Assembly (NCBI RefSeq): GCF_000235365.1
Contig: NC_016450.1
Span: forward strand, 1,054,001-1,118,000
Source of the DNA: Eremothecium cymbalariae DBVPG#7215
Taxonomy: Eukaryota > Ascomycota > Saccharomycetes > Saccharomycetales > Saccharomycetaceae
Length of the DNA stretch: 64,000 nt
Direction: 5' to 3'
Program-made: the position numbers and the translations under genes
In this document: positions 8,188 through 53,267 of the stretch, piece by piece
Numbering within the stretch: position 1 is the stretch's first letter
How the letters are laid out: each line of letters begins with the position of its first letter
The notes under the pieces: generated by a model
Told to the model about the DNA's origin: nothing
What the model saw: only the letters and a program-made list of their open reading frames with translations
Databases searched by the model: none

Positions 8188-9141
8188 GGCAGCTTTTTGT
8201 ATATTCAGAGGGGAAGCGAAGCTTTTCTAGTCGGGTTAGCAGTGCACGCAAACGTGTAAGTGATGATCGATATTGCACTTTCAGCTGAGTGAGTATGTCA
8301 AAGACGACAAGAAAAGGTGAAACCGACTATGAGTACATAAACTACTGTCTTATATTAAAATATATCATTGGTTGATCAAGAGGTGGAACAAACAAGGGTG
8401 GCTGGGGTGTGGCAGGAGGAGGTGGGTGAACCGGAAGCAGGGAGAGTGCAACGGAAAATTTTTTGCCTTTAGGCTCTCTCTCTGCCTTTGGTTCGAGAGA
8501 TTGAAACCTAATGAAATATGATGCGTCGACAAGGGGTTGGTTGTCGACAACGAAGGCGATGACATGGAAAATGTGATTTAAAGTTTGTACAAGGATTCGC
8601 CCCATCCACCCCACTATGAGAATTTACAAGTATTTCTCGACCACCGTACCCACATTGTTTCCTGTAGGAACTTGATTGAACCTTGAATGAATATCCCTTT
8701 CCCCCACTCGCTCCTCAGCACCAGACACTCTCCCTGGACTAAGAACATGCTGCATATGTGCTGAATAAGAACTTAGGCTATGTGGCAATAATAGCAGAAT
8801 CAACATCACCAGTAGTCACCAAATGCATTTCATTTCCTGTTACGGGATAGTCACAGAGCGGGTACATATTGTCTGTACATACCCCCTCGCAGAGCCTGGC
8901 CTTTACTTTGTTATACACCTCTATCGTACAGACTCTCTCGAAGCTGAGCGAGGGAGCCTCCTCACCCACCAAAAAACCTTCCAGAATGACGCTATAGCTA
9001 GCCTCCAGCCGTATGTGTCCCAACCAAAACGCATACCGCACAGGACGTGTCTCAGGTATGGTTTGGGCACAGGAATTGGCCGGGCCTTTGCCGTATCGCT
9101 GCTCGGAGTGGCTGCGTACATAATACAGCATCCTAAGTGCG

Positions 9142-14368: not shown

Positions 14369-15994
14369 TCAGTTTCCTTTATCAGGTGAGTGTTTTGTGT
14401 CCTTAAGCATATCTGTAACTGCTGCCACATCCAAGGATAGGTAATCTATGACAAATTGGCCTATATCAGTATTCTCACGATTACCAGACAAGTTCTTACG
14501 AATTAGATGTTTGGCAGACATTTTGTTAGCATATGCATAAACATTAACGTCCACACCACTATGACCGTGGGTACTCCACCCAATATACGCGCGGACAGAT
14601 ACAATCAAGCCCAATTCATTAACAAGCTGCGCAAAGTCATCTAACCCCACGATTAGGTTAACATCTGAGTCCGCAACATCGCGAATCCCAAGACCATCTT
14701 TGAAAACCGTCTCCCTAACAAATTCCCTCAATTGGGCAGGGTCAGCATTGGATTCCTTAAAACTCATAATTTCCTTTCCAAAATAGTCGCATGAGTGCTT
14801 CATGCGACTCAATACTTCTGGATCCCAGTAGTATTGTATTTCATTTTGGTCTAGCTGTCTTCCAACGGAGAGACCGCCAGTCTCATGATCTGAAGTAGAG
14901 ATTATCAATGTTTCAACGTTGGAATTCTTAGCGTGAGCCACAGTCCATTGAAAGGCATCATCAAAACCCATAACCTCCCTAGCCTGGGTCCCTGGATCGT
15001 TCGTATGACCTGCATGATCGATTCTGGAGGCCTCCACCAGCAAAAAGAAACCCTTATCTGAGTCCTTTGTAGCCTCTGTCAAAGCCCTCACTGCTGTCTT
15101 AACTTGCTCTGTGAAACTGGGCCAATCTTGTCTCTCTGCATCCCTATCTATAGAATATGGTAAGTCTTCATGAGCCAACAAAGCCAACAATGGAAGACTA
15201 ACGTTTTTACCGCCCTGTAACTCCCGGAATTGTGCAGTGTCGCCGACGTACTGCCAGCCGTTAACAACTGCCTCTTCTATTAAATCGCGCTCATCCCGAC
15301 GTGCTCCGTATTCCCCTCCATATTTCCTCTCATTACTACCAAAAAAGAATTTTCTACCACCACCGATTATCAAATCCACCACACGTCCAAGAGGATACCC
15401 CCCCAATTGCTGCTCTGCAATAAGTTCCTCCTGTCCCCGATTATCCACATGGGCAGAATACGCCCCCGGAGTTGCATCTGTGATCCTAGTAGTCACCACC
15501 ATCCCCGTCATGTACCCTTGCAGCTTCGCTGCCTCCAAAACCGTACCACACGGCTGCTGCGCTGCATCCACACCCACCGCCCCGTTATACGTCTTCAAGC
15601 CACACGAAAACGCCGTGGCACCCGCCGCTGAATCTGTGATATACGAAGACGACGAACGCGTCCGCGAAGTCCCTACCAAATAACTGTTTACGCCAAGCCC
15701 GCTGAAATACATCTCTGTTGTATCATTCTTCTCATTCTGCAAGAACCCTCTTGTCAACGTCAATGAAGCCGGCCCCATACCGTCTGTAACAAAAAATATT
15801 ACGTTTCTTTTCGATCCAGCCTCTTGATATCTTCCCATAAAGTCATAGTCAAACGCAAACCAGAAAACACAGCGCAACACAATGCAGAACACCACCCACT
15901 TCATGGCCACAAGCCACCGCTTGCGAGCCTTCTTTGGAACCAGCGAATTGGCCTCTATATCCGCAACATAATAATCATTACCCTTTTCCAACAT
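14369..15994 (-). CDS. PHO8: Vacuolar repressible alkaline phosphatase
   Basis: From the first ATG at 15994 the protein has 541 residues (S. cerevisiae 566). A cytosolic tail is followed by a signal anchor at about residues 27-49. The alkaline phosphatase domain shows all key motifs: VTDGMGPAS (metal Asp about 71), TDSAAGATAFS (nucleophile Ser about 122), SRIDHAGHTNDP, STSDHETGG and GWSTHGHSGVDVN for metal ligands. The enzyme hydrolyses phosphate esters in the vacuole and is delivered by the AP-3 pathway. The C-terminus ends soon after DTKHSPDKGN, about 20 residues shorter than in S. cerevisiae. An E-box in the promoter fits Pho4 control. Confidence 0.96.
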   Translation of the reverse strand: MLEKGNDYYVADIEANSLVPKKARKRWLVAMKWVVFCIVLRCVFWFAFDYDFMGRYQEAGSKRNVIFFVTDGMGPASLTLTRGFLQNEKNDTTEMYFSGLGVNSYLVGTSRTRSSSSYITDSAAGATAFSCGLKTYNGAVGVDAAQQPCGTVLEAAKLQGYMTGMVVTTRITDATPGAYSAHVDNRGQEELIAEQQLGGYPLGRVVDLIIGGGRKFFFGSNERKYGGEYGARRDERDLIEEAVVNGWQYVGDTAQFRELQGGKNVSLPLLALLAHEDLPYSIDRDAERQDWPSFTEQVKTAVRALTEATKDSDKGFFLLVEASRIDHAGHTNDPGTQAREVMGFDDAFQWTVAHAKNSNVETLIISTSDHETGGLSVGRQLDQNEIQYYWDPEVLSRMKHSCDYFGKEIMSFKESNADPAQLREFVRETVFKDGLGIRDVADSDVNLIVGLDDFAQLVNELGLIVSVRAYIGWSTHGHSGVDVNVYAYANKMSAKHLIRKNLSGNRENTDIGQFVIDYLSLDVAAVTDMLKDTKHSPDKGN

Positions 15995-22728: not shown

Positions 22729-23139
22729 TCAATCATCATTTAAATTAACATCCCCCACGGCCGGAGTTCTTTTTTTCCGAGTGGTATACACAGTCCTGAC
22801 GCGATCATGCTCCCGTAATTGCTTTTGTAACTCATCTCGTAGCTCATCGCACTTCCTGGTTATCTCGTTTTCGTCATAATTGCCAGCATCCTCCAATTGA
22901 TCCCGAAGTTCGCTTACCTGCAGCTCCACTTGCCTTCTATCGAGCCTCTTTAGTATACTATCATCAACTGTCTTCGCCCTAGTTCCCTTCGAGACATCTC
23001 TTTTACCGTTGGACTTCTCCTGTCTAGCCAAAAAATTCTTCACATTCTTCTTACCTTCATTGTCAGCTAACGACCGCTGTATATGGCCCGAAGTTGAAGA
23101 TCCCTTCGAACTTTTAAGCCCAATCCCATTATATGACAT
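22729..23139 (-). CDS. CWC21: Cwc21, spliceosome-associated protein (SRm300/SRRM2 N-terminal homolog)
   Basis: The 136 residues equal the S. cerevisiae length almost exactly. The invariant N-terminus MSYNGIGLKSSKGSSTSGHI identifies the family: this segment threads through the spliceosome active-site core. The cwf21 domain follows at about residues 70-115 (RRQVELQVSELRDQLE). Cwc21 binds Prp8 and Snu114 and modulates 5' splice-site handling. In S. cerevisiae CWC21 (YDR482C) lies between PHO8 and KRE2; here the order is kept, with OAZ1, an inserted Fanzor-like gene and an aquaporin added in between. Confidence 0.95.
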   Translation of the reverse strand: MSYNGIGLKSSKGSSTSGHIQRSLADNEGKKNVKNFLARQEKSNGKRDVSKGTRAKTVDDSILKRLDRRQVELQVSELRDQLEDAGNYDENEITRKCDELRDELQKQLREHDRVRTVYTTRKKRTPAVGDVNLNDD

Positions 23140-24977
23140 GTCTCTTCCTCCGCTTTCCTTCTTTCGTAAACTAGCTTGTATATTATCTATATATGCATCC
23201 TAGTTTGTGCATGTAGTAAGAGAGAGCTTTAACAAAAAAAAACGCTCTAAGGATACTCCGTACAATAAGCTTTACAGATCTGTCCATATATTGGGTTAAG
23301 AACACCTACAAATACCAAAAAGCACTCGGCGCATTTTGCTCCGGTTTACCTTAAGTCGTCTCGGTTACAGTATTCCATGGAGTGGTACTTCATGATACGT
23401 ATGCTCATTAAGTTTCGAACAATCTAAAACCTTCCGTGTGTCTAAAAGTATGTAGTAACAAGATAAAAAAAGAAATCTCCCTTCGTTATGTATCGTTGAG
23501 CATCGTCGTAATGATCAGCAAAGACGTCAGAAGTTCGAAATCATGTTGAAACGAATTCAAAAGGTGACGATGCTCGAACCTGCTCGCTTCTGCAGCACTG
23601 AAATCCTCTTTTTTTCGGATAGATCGATAACCTCTAGAAGGGTCGTCCGCCGCAAGGGAATTTATGAAGGCGAGAGAGTCTTAGCGTACATATCTACAAC
23701 CCTTTTCTGAAGGTTACGAGAGTCCATATTTCTCGAATCAGCCCAATTCACAGTCTAAGTAACACGTCCTATTTCCTCTTGTAGGAAACCCACCTATTTC
23801 AGGAGTCACTTTTAGGATACGCATCTCACGTGACCTGTTTCCAAGGCAACAAACACTCACACAATTTATTGTCTCTTGTGGAGCTGGATGTCGAAGACGT
23901 GATGTGGAAATAATAAAGAACTGCATGAACCTCTTTCTCTCCTATTCACTATCTTGTCTCCAATGATGTCGCATATGAAGTCATGAGGTGTCGCCGTCAG
24001 TATTGTAAATTCCGATTCAACAACTGTGCAGGAAATTGCATACTGTATTCGTCTGATTTAACTAGCCTGATGACGATAACTCTTGTCATCGCATATGCAT
24101 ATGTTTGCCTGAACCAGTTTGTCCTCGGAAATTTACAACTATAAACGAACCTGTTCACTACTCCTTCTGGCCCGTTGAGTTGTGCATCGTCTGCGTCAGC
24201 CGCATCCTACTACCTCGGGGAGAGAGCGAGGAATTATTCTTTCCAACGAGATACGCAAAAAGGTAGTTGAACAAAAGTGTTAAGTTCTTAGAGTTACGCG
24301 CATTATACAAGGCAGTAAAAGAAGTTCGGTTTTATTTTTGCTGTGCAATTTTGTTGATATCTTATGTGGTCTATGCATTACACATCCATCGATACATAAA
24401 TTTATATACCGAAGCATGTGCTTTATCTCCCCAGCCCGAAGACTGGCGAAACTCCTAAGGGCAGCATGGCCCCCGACTGTTAACAGGAAAACCCGCCAAC
24501 AGTCATTGCAGCAAAAATATGGAAAAAAAAACCGGTATTTTATGGTTTGGGTACCATCACTGCCTTGAATTAAAGTGTGCGTCCTGTGACGATAAAAGAG
24601 GTGGTGCAGTGAGACTTTGAGGAACTGCTCGAGGCATGTGTCACGAGATTCGGACGAGATAAGCGCGCAGATCCTCAATGTCAGCCTTTCGTTGGAAGAA
24701 AGACCAGGCCCAACCTCTGAGAGACAAAAATTTGAAAAGATTAAATGGAAACTTCACAGGGTAGTGTAATTACCAGCAGTATTTATAGGTTTTTGGTTTT
24801 TATTTCCTTTCTGACTTAGATCTGATAACCTTTGCCCGGATCAAAAGTCTACTTAAGATCGGTCAAAAAAGTATTGCCAGGATTTCCGAAAGGGGCAAAA
24901 ACAAAACTAACTCCCAACAGAGATTCAATTAACATCTATACATCACAAGATAAATGAGAATATATATTGTGTTAGAT
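23140..24977. other. CWC21 upstream region and 3' flank of the Fanzor-like gene
   Basis: About 1.8 kb with no recognisable gene. The part near 24.7-24.98 kb directly follows the nuclease stop codon and is where a guide RNA of a TnpB-like system would be expected. TTTCCGAAA at about 24885 resembles part of a centromere CDEIII but lacks the other elements. The small open frames here are not convincing. Confidence 0.45.
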
Positions 24978-26234
24978 TCATGCAATTTCACCAAGATACT
25001 TGAGAAGAATGTTTTTAGCTGCATTATGGTCTCTGTCGAAGATAGACTCGCAATTGCCACATTTGAAAACTTTTGAGGCACCAATATTGCTACGGGTGCC
25101 ACAGGACGAGCACGTTTTAGTTGTAAATTCTTCATCGACTTCGATGACGGTTGTGTTCTCGTAGTGGCGAGCCTTGTTTTTAAGTCTCTGCACAAATAAG
25201 CAGTGTTTCATATTTGCTAGGTTTGCTTTCACTCTGCGGTTGGCTTTCTTGAAGTTATGGAAGTTCAGCACGGGGATCAAGATGTAGTTATATTTACTAG
25301 CCAAAAGACTAGAGGCCTTCCGATGAACGTCGTTGGCCAGATTTTTCTTCTTTTGATACAGCCTGCGTATTACTTTTCTTCGGTTCCTTATTTTTAGTTT
25401 ACGGTATTGCTTGGGAAGAGCACATTTTGATCGCAGCTTATGGATATCAGATTGCAAAGATCTTAGCCTCCTATCCAGATGCTGCAGTTTTAGGTAGCCG
25501 TCCTCACCTATTTCGAGGACCTTTTGGGAACTATCATAAGTTGTTAAAAACGTCCTTACACCAGGATCAATCGCAACCGCATTAACTGATTGATCAGGCT
25601 TTGGAATTTGAACTTTCGATTCAAATGGGATTACAAGAAACCATTTACGGTATTCTCTTATTAGTCGAGAATCATGAGGTAACTTTTCAGGAAGCGGTTC
25701 AGTACTTCTTAAAGTTTTGGCATTAAACAAGTCATAGAATATCCCACGGCTTAACCCCCATACCTTCTTTTCTACCGCCATGCTCTGTTTGTCTCTTATT
25801 CTTTTGAAATGCAGTTTAAATGGCTTCAATGACTTTTTAGATTTAGCCAAATTTGTTCTATAATCTTTGTCAAAGTCTCTGAGACCGTTATCCTTGATCA
25901 AAAATGGTACTTGTTTGAGATATGTTATTTTGGGGTCCTCATCGTAATTGTAGTTCTTTTTCAATGGTGTCACTTCTCTAAGATGCTTTAATTTCATTTT
26001 CACTTTGGTACCTTTCGCTTTGGCTTCTTTGCCCATCCTAATACGCTCTGCCACTGCCAAATTATACATATGTCTTGTAGCCGTTAACCATAACTGAAGT
26101 GTCTGCTTCTGTTCTCTGGTAGGATAGATTCTAATAGTCTTTGGCTTCCAAAACTCTTTACTGACACCCGGATCTTCTATTTTCTGGGTCCTAATCAGAA
26201 CTTGATCATTGGCATCCATTCCATGATCTATCAT
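24978..26234 (-). CDS. Fanzor / TnpB-family RNA-guided nuclease (eukaryotic, probably acquired horizontally)
   Basis: The intact frame encodes 418 residues. The N-terminal part (31-65: PKTIRIYPTREQKQTLQLWL, then RHMYNLAV) is the TnpB wedge/helix-turn-helix signature. RuvC-I is AIDPGVRTF with Asp223. A long basic bridge region follows (about 250-310). At the usual RuvC-II position the sequence is ILIPVLNF, lacking the expected Glu, while VIEVDEEFTTKTCSSCG supplies Glu368/369 just before the zinc finger; this relocated glutamate is described for Fanzors and related TnpBs. The zinc ribbon is Cys375, Cys378, Cys392 and Cys395; RuvC-III is FDRDHNAAKNILLK (Asp400/402). All catalytic acids are present, so activity is possible. 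An upstream frame starting at ATG 26347 would join it if the T8 run at 26268-26275 were one base longer. Family members cut DNA guided by an RNA from the element's 3' end. Confidence 0.92.
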   Translation of the reverse strand: MIDHGMDANDQVLIRTQKIEDPGVSKEFWKPKTIRIYPTREQKQTLQLWLTATRHMYNLAVAERIRMGKEAKAKGTKVKMKLKHLREVTPLKKNYNYDEDPKITYLKQVPFLIKDNGLRDFDKDYRTNLAKSKKSLKPFKLHFKRIRDKQSMAVEKKVWGLSRGIFYDLFNAKTLRSTEPLPEKLPHDSRLIREYRKWFLVIPFESKVQIPKPDQSVNAVAIDPGVRTFLTTYDSSQKVLEIGEDGYLKLQHLDRRLRSLQSDIHKLRSKCALPKQYRKLKIRNRRKVIRRLYQKKKNLANDVHRKASSLLASKYNYILIPVLNFHNFKKANRRVKANLANMKHCLFVQRLKNKARHYENTTVIEVDEEFTTKTCSSCGTRSNIGASKVFKCGNCESIFDRDHNAAKNILLKYLGEIA

Positions 26235-26267
26235 TTTAAATGAAGTCCAACTAGGTATATCTAGCTG

Positions 26268-26275
26268 TTTTTTTT
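26268..26275 (-). other. Homopolymer break separating the Fanzor N-terminus
   Basis: On the coding strand an A8 run sits between a short frame starting at 26347 (MPIFPAKRQATLKNK...) and the long nuclease frame. One more A would fuse them without stops, passing through QLDIPSWTSFK into the ATG at 26234, for about 455 residues. This suggests an indel or sequencing error. Confidence 0.6.
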
Positions 26276-26347
26276 CAAATCATTACCTTGTTGTAACACC
26301 AACTTATTTTTCAGTGTAGCCTGTCTCTTAGCAGGGAAAATAGGCAT

Positions 26348-28666
26348 CTTAAATCACCACAAATTATTATTCTAAAATTTTATTTTTATTATTATTTAAA
26401 CTATATATACAATCAGAAACTTATTAGATCAATTATCCTAAGCACCTTGAGATCAAGACATGTCTTATATATAAAAACTTGGATTTGGTCGATCTATACT
26501 ATTCGACGTTGATGTGCATTTTAACATCTTGATCTAAATTTTCACTACAACTCCCATGTTGATGTAAGCGCCGGCGGTTTAGAACAGGAAACTTCTTACT
26601 GTTTAAGGAATACTTTTGGCTCCTCATCTTAGCAACATAAACGATATAACCAATTTTAAAACGTCAGTAACTTTGGTCATATGTTAAAAAGCACATTTGA
26701 CATTATTACTGCATACTTTATAAAAACGCGTCCAAAATAAAATAAGACTCCTATATATGGATGTAAAAATATGGCGTCTGGAAATGGTCCTTAAAAAGTA
26801 CAATAGAGTTACATAGACATAGATTTAGATCCGTAGATCTTAAGACTTCTAGATGCCTTTTATCGCGTCCGTGGTAAAAGGGTTCGGAGATCGTCAACAC
26901 GTTAAGCATTTTACATCCAAACACCGCGTTATAAAAGGCGGCTACGGGTGCCTTCGAGGAGCGCTACTCCTCTCTCGAAGCACAATAAGGCTGAGTTTAT
27001 ACTGTAAGACAGACTGAGTTTAATAAATATCTCTTCCAAAGAATTGGGGAGTGGAGATAATCATGTATCTCAATATCAAAGTAGATTATTGTAGCTGGTC
27101 ACGAGACACTTTGATCCGTATCCGTAAGCCTGATGATCCACTGGAATAATTTTATACATACTCGATTAGCAGGTAGCCTTTGTAACTATGAAAAATTAAT
27201 GGAGGCCTGCCCTTTTCGACAGGTGAAATCAGCCAATAATGGAATCAACCGTTCTTCATAGCAGGTAAAGCGATGGTCGTGTCATGGACACTTAAGTGGG
27301 TGCTAGATCAACCTAATGAGGAATTGACTGCTTCTACTAATTCAGAGGCCTCCAACACTCGTGTTTTATCTACGATCATTATAGTGGATCAGAAAAGATA
27401 GATAGATAGGATTATCTCATAGCAATACCAACTTACCCGCGTAAGCTTGCGAAGAAAATCGCTACCCTAAAGTGGAATCAAAATTCTGACCCTGCTATAT
27501 TATAGCATTTTAATAGAATCCCTTTTCAACTAAGGAATAAGAATGCTCTCCTCCAACAGTCCAACATGTAATGGCGTCTAATTGATTGATTTAGCGCCCA
27601 GACTATGATGTGGGTAGAAATAAGCTCATGCATCCATTAGCTAAATGGCTAACTCGTGTCTTGACCTCAGGCTTGACGAAGATAAAAGACACCTAGAAAA
27701 CGCCAAAAAGTACACCGATGGGGTTTGTGTCGCCTACGATAGACACATTATACCTTAAAACTTTCGATCTTTACAGCATTAATTAATCATACAAAATATA
27801 TTATTCTCTCAGATAATCCCCAAAGGACCTATTTGCTTAGGTGATACCTCGCTGATCCCCATTTAACCCCAACTTTCTGTGCTTCCATAGACGGCCATCG
27901 TAACTGTATCACGTCTTACAGCTCTTATTTCTGATAATTGGTGAAAACCAGCACATATTTCGCGTAGAATCTTATGCCTCAAACCTTTTACTACCTCTCT
28001 ATGTCCTGTATCTTCGAAAATTTCCAAAGCGCGTGTAGCCAAACCGTTTGAGGATGAGATAGAAAAGTAACTTCCAAAATAGGAAATTATATTCAAAACT
28101 GTTTCACATTATGCATTATGCTAGGGATGTGAGATGGGAACTTTACGAACAGGCAGCAGGACAAAAGTTCAGGAAGAATGGGAGTGCAGAGCTGTGGAAG
28201 AACACGAAAGCCACTAACCAAAAAACACATATAACTAAACTGGAAATTTAATTCATAGCTGTTTTCCTCTAGGCGCTGAATGCATGTGCCTGTCTCTGGT
28301 TGTCTTCTCTTCAGTTAGCCTTCGAACAACTTCGAGTATATCCCCGGTGTTAATGTGTTTCTTACCTGTGATATCCACAAAATGGTGTTCGTGAAGGTTT
28401 CAAAAAATGTTATACTACCACGGCAGGGTATTTAGAGCCAGAAAACCGAAGATCCTCTGTCCTGTATGACTGTTTCCAGCATTTGGATGGCTCTACATTC
28501 AGGCTTTGCTCAATATACCATCACATAAATACAACTAGCATAAAATATACATTTTTCATTAAACAAAAGTCTTGAGTTTAGCTAAATAGGCTACATAACA
28601 ATTGTAATGGCGTATCAAACACATTAAAACTCAGTATTAAGGATAACAGACCCATTTTCTGAACCA
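26348..28666. other. Gene-poor AT-rich stretch with decayed sequence
   Basis: About 2.3 kb between the Fanzor-like gene and OAZ1. Several short coding-like pieces end at stops within 30-50 codons (for example plus strand near 27063-27150, 27271-27400 and 27644-27760), but none is recognisable. An imperfect hairpin of GTGC..TTCGA..GGAG type lies at about 26948-26983. It is best described as decayed insertion DNA. Confidence 0.4.
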
Positions 28667-29468
28667 TCAACATTCAAAACGAATCGTTATAAAATCTGTG
28701 TCGTTCCAACAGACTGGATTTTCATCACCAGTACAGCAGTCACCAAAGTTTTGTACGATTTCTCCACCTATCCAATTTAAATTCTTTAACAAGTCCTTGA
28801 TATTCACTAGATTACTCCTATCAACAAACAATAGCAACCATTGGCAGCCGTGTGGGAATATCTCTAAGTTATTTCCAACTAGCTCCATAATCATAATTAG
28901 CCACTTTTTCAAGTCCATGGCGGTATGGACTCTCCTATCCATAATCACCAACAAGTTCCTGTTGTTGGTGATCGCCTTGTAGAAATGCATGCCATATTGT
29001 TCGAGGATCACCCCATAAAGATCCCCAATTTGTTGAAAATCAGGATACTTATCCTCTGATGAACTCAGCCCTTTGGTAAGACATGTGATCTTCTTCCCTA
29101 CGCGCTTCACTATATGCTTCTGAAACACTCGGTACGATCTAGTATCCTGTGCATCATCGCCGCCTGAACGCATGTTAGGGAAGACAAGAAACCTTGATTC
29201 CATTACGGAAATGAAATCCCAGTATAACTCGATCAACTGATCGGCACTGATAGCAAGAAGTTCCCTAGATGTGTCACGCTAACCATTCCGAGAATCCAGC
29301 CTGGGGAGAAAAGCGATATTCAACCATACAAGGCTGAAGATAGTCTGCTTTTGTATGTTTCGCTAGTTGCTTTACTGAAAAAGACACACTCTTAGGTACA
29401 TCTGTCGTTATGGAATTTAAAAATTTGGCTATCTCTTGTTCTTTCTTCTCCAACTGACTCATAACCAT
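28667..29468 (-). CDS. OAZ1: Ornithine decarboxylase antizyme, decoded by +1 frameshifting
   Basis: Two overlapping frames encode one protein. Frame 1 starts at 29468 and gives 64 residues ending GFSEWLA before TGA at 29276-29274. Frame 2 continues from GAC at 29275 through DTSRELLAISADQLIELYWD to the stop at 28667, ending DFITIRFEC. S. cerevisiae Oaz1 has the same plan: 68 residues ending in WCA, then a TGA, then DIPLD..., finishing NFVILEFEC. The conserved second-frame blocks are LYWDFISVMESRF and LKNLNWIGGEIV. The joined product would be about 266 residues. Antizyme binds ornithine decarboxylase monomers and sends them to the proteasome; polyamines raise frameshifting and so close a feedback loop. 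Conceptual annotation as two genes would be wrong. Confidence 0.94.
29273..29279 (-). promoter_or_regulatory. Programmed +1 frameshift site (GCG TGA C)
   Basis: The coding strand reads TTA GCG TGA C. The ribosome pauses at the slow TGA stop with Ala-tRNA on GCG and moves forward one base to GAC. The heptamer core GCG-TGA-C is identical to the site used by S. cerevisiae OAZ1. Confidence 0.88.
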
Positions 29469-52192: not shown

Positions 52193-52419
52193 AGCCCACC
52201 ACCCCATCACTAATATAACCGCGCTAACAACCCACTCACTATGCACACTACATACGATTATTATTAACAACAACAATAAACTAGTCCAATTCTGATCTGA
52301 TGCGATGCGATCTCCACGAAAAGGAATATATCTACCAGAAATCACCCCCACTGCACCCCGCCCCATTACCTAAGAAACCGACTCGCAACGGACCAACAAG
52401 AATCCCGAACTTTGCGCTT

Positions 52420-52465
52420 CCCGCCTCCCACCAAACACCACGAGTGGTGTTTGGTGGGAGGCGGG
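52420..52465. repeat. 46-bp near-perfect palindrome
   Basis: Two 22-base arms pair without a mismatch around a two-base centre (GA at 52442-52443). The left arm begins CCCGCCTCCCACC and ends AAACACCAC; the right arm is its exact complement. Confidence 0.95.
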
Positions 52466-53267
52466 GGTTATGTATAATTGCTGTCTTGACAAAAATAAAC
52501 CAGCCCATTTAACTCTCCCGAGTTCCACCCCGCTTAACCTCTAGACACCTCCTAATGCGTTTCGCCATGCTTGGCCCATGCTTCGCCATCTAGCAATCTC
52601 GCCAGCGCACACCTAGTTGTACCCTGTATAACAATATATCTCCTCACATCATTCCCCTTCAAAGTATCCAAAAAGAAAATCAGGTTATCAAAGACGGGGA
52701 CGCAGCTGATGTTGATGCCTTTTTCTTGCACAAGATAAAGATAGAAGAAAAACGACAGAGACAGCAAGTGTATATACGCAGTAGTAATGCGGGAAGCGCA
52801 GTTTGAAATCTTTATGGGAATTTCGTGGTGCTTTGTATTTTCACCGTTCTTTAATTAATAAAAAGCTTTGAAGTTCATTTTTTTGGAATTTATAATGGAG
52901 AGGTTTTCTTTTTGGTTAAAGGAATTCAGAGAGTGTAATTAGTGTTAGTGGTAGAGACGAAGCGACAGGACTGAATAAAAAAGAAGTGTTATATAGAAAT
53001 CAACTAAAGACACTAAACGTTTGTACTTTGGTTTCATCGAGAGCAGAGGCAGCAGACGAAGCGCACGAACGGTATAGAGTTTAGAAGGGGGGCTAAAAAA
53101 ATTGTAGGTTAGTTATCCACAAGAAGGGACAGGTAGAGAGGAAAGAAGTTGGATCTTTTAGTGTTTAAGGCGGATTTTCTTTCTTTTAGCAACAGGCAGG
53201 TTTTATTATAGTTTTGGCATATTGTTGGTATTAGAAAAAAAGAACAAAAGACAGCCATAGAAGAGGG

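Follow-up and report, generated by a model that had tools for sequence, protein, structure and literature searches.

A single-copy Fanzor2-type gene of Eremothecium cymbalariae with shared neighbours in related species, likely domesticated

Introduction

Fanzor2 proteins are relatives of CRISPR Cas12. Bao & Jurka (2013) listed one Fanzor2 each in Ashbya gossypii and Eremothecium cymbalariae DBVPG#7215, and the same list includes one each in Saccharomyces cerevisiae EC1118/QA23 and Torulaspora delbrueckii (PMC3627910); the presence of a Fanzor2 in E. cymbalariae is already in print and is not new. A possible resemblance of AGL264w to a bacterial transposase has been noted (PMC3276169). Another yeast, S. 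kluyveri, has IS607-type serine recombinases (PMC2715888), and AGL264 was not found in the main text of that paper. Ashbya has also been named in the context of Cas12a editing (PMC7889808). Our literature search, which fell mostly outside subscription journals and bioRxiv, turned up no description of the Eremothecium gene as domesticated.

The window analysed here is a 64,000-nucleotide stretch of E. cymbalariae DBVPG#7215 (contig NC_016450.1, positions 1,054,001 to 1,118,000), and all coordinates are positions within it. Beyond the known papers, the analysis adds that the gene is single-copy, that no serine recombinase is found in the genome, that its neighbours are shared, that its catalytic residues are kept and that its conservation exceeds that of its neighbours. 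We favour, with moderate confidence, the reading that it encodes a Fanzor2-type protein, a predicted RNA-guided DNA endonuclease with orthologues adjoining one or other of its two neighbour genes, which is likely domesticated for the fungus's own use.

Results and Discussion

Domain content and family assignment

24978..26234, minus strand: Fanzor2-type nuclease ORF, predicted RNA-guided, 418 aa (profiles, motif and predicted fold)

Translation of 24978-26234 on the minus strand is open throughout its 418 codons, and the frame carries every motif that a sequence-only reading of this DNA had quoted in claiming a TnpB-like core. That reading had placed the gene at 24978..26347; the 418-aa frame accounts for 24978-26234, and the end at 26347 lies outside it. 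The protein matches the Pfam models Cas12f1-like_TNB (62.6 bits), OrfB_IS605 (36.3 bits) and HTH_OrfB_IS605 (33.6 bits), all above their cut-offs, and the NCBIfam guided_TnpB model at 132.7 bits against a cut-off of 100. The HTH_OrfB_IS605 match (cut-off 21) covers the N-terminal region, where such a domain is a feature of some Fanzor2s. TnpB-type domains occur together with a C4 zinc ribbon and the RD motif by which Fanzor2 is recognised (PMC3627910). A Foldseek search with the predicted fold returned the mimivirus Fanzor2 structure (PDB 9b0l) as the best solved relative; SpuFz, a Fanzor1, first appeared at rank 36. Profiles, signature motif and predicted fold thus agree with the Fanzor/TnpB class first proposed for the gene, and we assign its product to the TnpB family as a Fanzor2-type member.

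The protein in PDB 9b0l, mimivirus L79 (titled Fanzor2), has the same domain order, and its alternative glutamate is aligned with that of the window protein; the two share 26% identity in the Foldseek alignment (E 2.4e-20). They differ in the N-terminal extension. Unlike mimivirus L79, the Eremothecium gene is single-copy, lies on a fungal chromosome and has common neighbours in other species, and no recombinase was found in its genome.

Active site

25566..25568, minus strand: RuvC-I catalytic Asp D223, in the DPG motif
25131..25133, minus strand: RuvC-II catalytic Glu at the alternative position, E368, six residues ahead of the zinc ribbon
25050..25112, minus strand: zinc ribbon, C375-C378 and C392-C395 (Pfam and alignment)
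25029..25031, minus strand: RuvC-III catalytic Asp D402

The RuvC-I DPG that serves as a Fanzor criterion (PMC10711439) is present as D223-P-G. The canonical RuvC-II glutamate is absent, with Pro321 at the aligned position. In TnpB (PDB 8h1j; also 8exa, titled ISDra2) this glutamate, within Gly-Thr-Glu-His-Leu, aligns with Pro321, and in the Eremothecium protein E368 stands in for it. Among the 47 of 121 proteins aligned for these counts, the canonical-glutamate column holds proline in 45 and glycine in two. The alternative-glutamate pattern of PMC10711439 is found in the window protein and all three orthologues, and in 75 of 121 proteins overall. D223, E368 and D402 are kept in all four orthologues, the window protein included, and in 47/47 aligned homologues. 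Both the missing canonical glutamate and the Fanzor-type alternative had been overlooked in the sequence-only reading.

In bacteria, nuclease-dead, TnpB-derived, domesticated repressors exist, and by likeness the Eremothecium protein could be an RNA-guided binder or regulator for which cutting is dispensable. Strong conservation of the predicted RNA/DNA-binding REC helices, where 66 of 94 residues are identical in all four orthologues, is consistent with such a role. A dead regulator need not, however, keep the three catalytic residues throughout the orthologues and aligned homologues, and we consider this explanation quite improbable.

Neighbours, orthologues and inheritance

22729..23139, minus strand: CWC21, 3' neighbour and syntenic anchor (cwf21 domain)
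28667..29236, minus strand: OAZ1 (antizyme) main frame, 5' neighbour and syntenic anchor (ODC_AZ domain, 28667-29203)

Both neighbours named by the sequence-only reading were confirmed by domain, and the gene does lie alone between them in that the interval has no further ATG frame of at least 150 aa. Two shorter TTG frames, of 88 and 132 aa, occur there. The stretches on either side of the nuclease, 23140-24977 (1.8 kb) and 26348-28666 (2.3 kb), are without an ATG frame of 150 aa; the E. cymbalariae genome has about 2 kb per gene (PMC3276169).

Three close relatives came up when the protein was searched, namely AGL264Wp (E. gossypii), HDR027Cp (E. sinecaudum) and P0003, the last presumably from another Eremothecium. 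Beyond these, identity does not exceed 41% among 120 of the 169 matches. Among the CWC21 matches were FAGL263Wp of E. gossypii and AaceriAGL263Wp of A. aceri, AGL263W being one number from AGL264W, and the OAZ1 search returned E. sinecaudum HDR028Cp, HDR028C being one number from HDR027C. P0003 and the CWC21 homologue P0124 are probably on one contig of 5892 bases. The named matches did not include OAZ1 of E. gossypii or CWC21 of E. sinecaudum. The orthologues therefore adjoin CWC21 (E. gossypii, and probably the P0003 lineage) or OAZ1 (E. sinecaudum), as judged for one flank of each orthologue from gene numbers or a shared contig rather than from the orthologues' DNA.

A phylogenetic tree of 76 homologues (77 of 121 proteins were taken, and P0064, of fewer than 300 aa, was left out) places the four orthologues, the window protein included, in one clade (100/100), with a stem of 1.58 changes per column and tips of 0.09-0.20. 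The clade's neighbours are the metagenomic proteins P0006, P0009 and P0010 (99/97), and mimiviral and cyanobacterial proteins fall elsewhere in a tree whose deeper forks are weak and which was built with neither a named Fanzor1 nor a curated outgroup. A transfer at an earlier date, into the ancestor of Eremothecium, is likely.

Orthologues adjoining CWC21 or OAZ1 were thus recovered from E. gossypii, E. sinecaudum and probably one further relative, and these shared neighbours do not support the recent horizontal arrival that had been offered as one of three origins. The low identity of all listed matches other than the orthologues would suit a recent arrival or contamination, but the gene is inside a chromosome-scale contig, its orthologues keep the same neighbours, and the clade has a long stem with short tips. 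Recent arrival or contamination is strongly disfavoured.

Copy number and mobility

A search of the whole genome (9,669,424 bases in 8 contigs) found the nuclease gene in single copy, and no second TNB domain over the cut-off. A TNB zinc-ribbon match of 23.8 bits, under the cut-off of 26.3, was observed at C4:600153-600245 (L003) within an open frame of 1142 residues. No PF00239 (serine recombinase) match was found in the genome by a search that detected 10 of 14 in its control. The flanks of the nuclease gene have no repeat in the genome. The region 24280-25100, compared with the whole genome at E <= 10, matched only itself in a search to which guide-sized matches are invisible. Neither a serine recombinase TnpA nor more than one copy or a variable position, the marks of an IS607-type element, was found.

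Around three viral relatives (L005, L006 and L009), none of seven flanking ORFs tested had a Resolvase domain. A recombinase missing next door is therefore not distinctive by itself, since these viral relatives are also without one in the ORFs tested. A present-day mobile element was rejected because the genome holds no match to PF00239 and no further copy of the gene, the flanks occur once, and other species have the same neighbours.

Conservation and the possibility of homing

The window protein is 81.4% identical to its orthologue AGL264W (which adjoins CWC21), 77.9% to HDR027C (which adjoins OAZ1) and 74.8% to the third orthologue. By comparison, the identities for CWC21 are 55.4% (E. gossypii), 56.9% (A. 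aceri) and 51.6% (P0124), and those for OAZ1 are 58.8% (E. sinecaudum) and 54.4% (P0184). Average protein identity in the genus is about 60% (PMC5499181). Conservation of the nuclease (75-81%) thus exceeds both that of CWC21 and OAZ1 (52-59%) and the genus average. The RuvC-II region is identical in all four orthologues at 46 of 52 residues, and the 418-aa frame is only loosely conserved at its N-terminal tail (9/27). Judged at the protein level, the protein is under constraint. As far as the protein is concerned, its conservation above that of two neighbours and the retention of catalytic residues in 4/4 orthologues speak against the mobile-element relic that had been suggested as another origin.

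The main rival to domestication is that the gene is a selfish homing gene, in which a flank-guided nuclease would cut chromosomes without the gene at the CWC21-OAZ1 site and repair would copy it in, with no host benefit. A homing gene, once fixed, is expected to lose selection and decay, but in four lineages this protein remains better conserved than either neighbour. An empty site was likewise not seen in these four lineages, which were sampled through their protein sequences only. The fixed position, the intact active-site residues and the lack of a detected recombinase would all fit homing, and TnpB guides are read from the element's flank (PMC10711439), which would make an empty site the natural target. 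On balance we regard homing as unlikely.

Single copy, no serine recombinase found, orthologues by the same neighbours, retained catalytic residues and conservation together lead us to conclude that the gene is vertically inherited, immobile and most likely domesticated, and not a recent arrival. Of the three origins put forward by the sequence-only reading, a domesticated nuclease fits best.

N-terminal extension and frame change

26235..26347, minus strand: conserved N-terminal extension, from ATG 26347 (both frames translated and compared with P0001-P0003)

The ATG at 26347 opens 28 codons in another frame, which match the N-terminus of the orthologues, and the match switches to the frame of the main ORF at an eight-A run, 26268-26275. 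The sequence still resembles the orthologues before and after the break. In AGL264W (E. gossypii) and HDR027C (E. sinecaudum) the extension is in one frame with the rest, whereas here the two are separated by the frame change. The extension is basic by eye and could act as a nuclear signal. An intron in place of the frame change is not favoured, as inspection by eye found no TACTAAC in the 113-nt stretch (splice rule of PMC3276169).

At the break, the upstream frame reads A AAA AAC, which we take to be a -1 frameshift heptamer. 454 sequencing is prone to errors in base runs. The E. cymbalariae genome was assembled from 454 shotgun reads at up to 40x and fosmid ends (PMC3276169). The frame change may be a sequencing error, programmed frameshifting at A AAA AAC, or a true lesion with an internal start at 26234. 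Because a conserved extension is out of frame in the assembly, the E. cymbalariae copy might be impaired.

The out-of-frame extension and the lack of a detected partner recombinase in the genome would also be expected of a transposon relic that is decaying in E. cymbalariae, the frame change being its first lesion. Against this, the break falls within an eight-A run of a 454 assembly, the orthologue match continues on either side of it, and the 418-aa core is open; we consider decay very improbable.

A structured segment downstream of the gene

24320..24559, minus strand: predicted structured RNA segment, on the strand of the gene and 419-658 nt past its stop codon (lowest z in 240-nt tiles)

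Segment 24320-24559 on the minus strand has the lowest z of 532 240-nt tiles on both strands (-9.0 with 20 shuffles, -7.9 with 60), and its opposite strand is ordinary (z -1.2). This first rank is flattered because the chosen tiling start sets one tile exactly on the segment. With 150-nt tiles, the segment's best tile, 24451-24600 (z -4.06), is only fifth of 852; ahead of it are 52351-52500 (both strands), 8401-8550 and 14701-14850. The core, 24340-24520, has a z of -5.65, with none of 200 shuffles equally low, and is predicted to fold into four stem-loops inside a closing stem. The second-ranked 240-nt tile, 52400-52639, contains a 22-bp palindrome: at 52420-52465 two 22-bp arms, perfect inverted copies of each other, are separated by 2 nt, and this palindrome occurs nowhere else in the genome.

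Near the stop codon, 150-nt windows starting at -125, -50 and +25 have z of -0.25, 0.81 and -0.21, and the window at -200 has -2.42; a 301-nt stretch spanning the stop has -2.54. Five viral loci with the Fanzor signature, a set with two near-duplicate pairs and too small to fix where the guide usually lies, have their lowest mean z at -125, -50 and +400 (-1.62, -1.81 and -1.74). The structure scan covered these five and 25 of 51 other loci, from 56 with a readable stop among 80 fetched; the fetched loci came from a scan that kept 80 of 483.

No Rfam family reached its gathering score for the segment, and matches below that score were at chance level. No tRNA was found in it, with or without introns. 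Promoter and terminator scans at the segment gave no more than shuffles, using bacterial patterns of little use here. Telomerase RNA was ruled out as its identity, since that RNA is placed on chromosome 6 (PMC3276169). The IS607 element ISXfa1 has a guide RNA of about 150 nt that extends past the element end and has three predicted stem-loops (PMC10711439). The usual place of a guide is around the stop codon, and the Eremothecium segment lies further from the gene than expected. Going by predicted structure, 24320-24559 may be a candidate guide RNA that has come to lie at a distance from the gene, or a non-coding RNA gene unrelated to it.

A possible mating-type target

HO, Kat1 and alpha3 belong to protein families unrelated to Fanzor2 and have built-in DNA specificity. 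These nucleases and transposases were recruited by budding yeasts for the cut at the mating-type locus, MAT (PMC6692504, PMC5499181), and the likeness to the present gene would lie in such recruitment. E. cymbalariae has three MAT cassettes and HO is absent (PMC3276169), which, together with recruitment in other yeasts, makes a MAT role attractive. Two MATalpha1 copies were found, at C1:6482 and C1:236541 (L090 and L091), consistent with HML and MAT cassettes and with their reported place on chromosome 1 (PMC3276169).

The 3' flank (23140-25040) shares no word longer than 12 bases with the two 10-kb regions that bear MATalpha1 (L093 and L094); with five 10-kb chunks of the window that served as control, the longest shared word is 12-14 bases. 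A MAT target is thus without support from the word test, which covered only the two MATalpha1 regions. That the gene is a fully domesticated nuclease guided by a separate RNA gene at 24320-24559 to one fixed chromosomal target, such as the cut for MAT switching, seems to us a doubtful, rather remote prospect.

Proposed model

Under the favoured reading of a likely domesticated Fanzor2-type nuclease, an IS607-type Fanzor2 would have reached the genus's ancestor and been retained after the loss of its mobility partner. The protein may enter the nucleus through its basic N-terminal extension and would bind a guide RNA from the same strand downstream, either the candidate 24320-24559 or, as with other TnpBs, an RNA from the ORF's 3' end. 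Guide-matched target DNA would then be opened, and D223, E368 and D402 would cut it. Selection would act on the cutting of a fixed chromosomal or foreign DNA target, to the presumed benefit of the host.

Conclusions

Fanzors have been described chiefly in mobile elements and viruses. A single-copy, immobile Fanzor2 in several Eremothecium species, including the laboratory fungus E. gossypii, makes the use of an RNA-guided nuclease by a eukaryote for its own purposes directly testable. The Eremothecium protein would also provide a compact eukaryotic nuclease.
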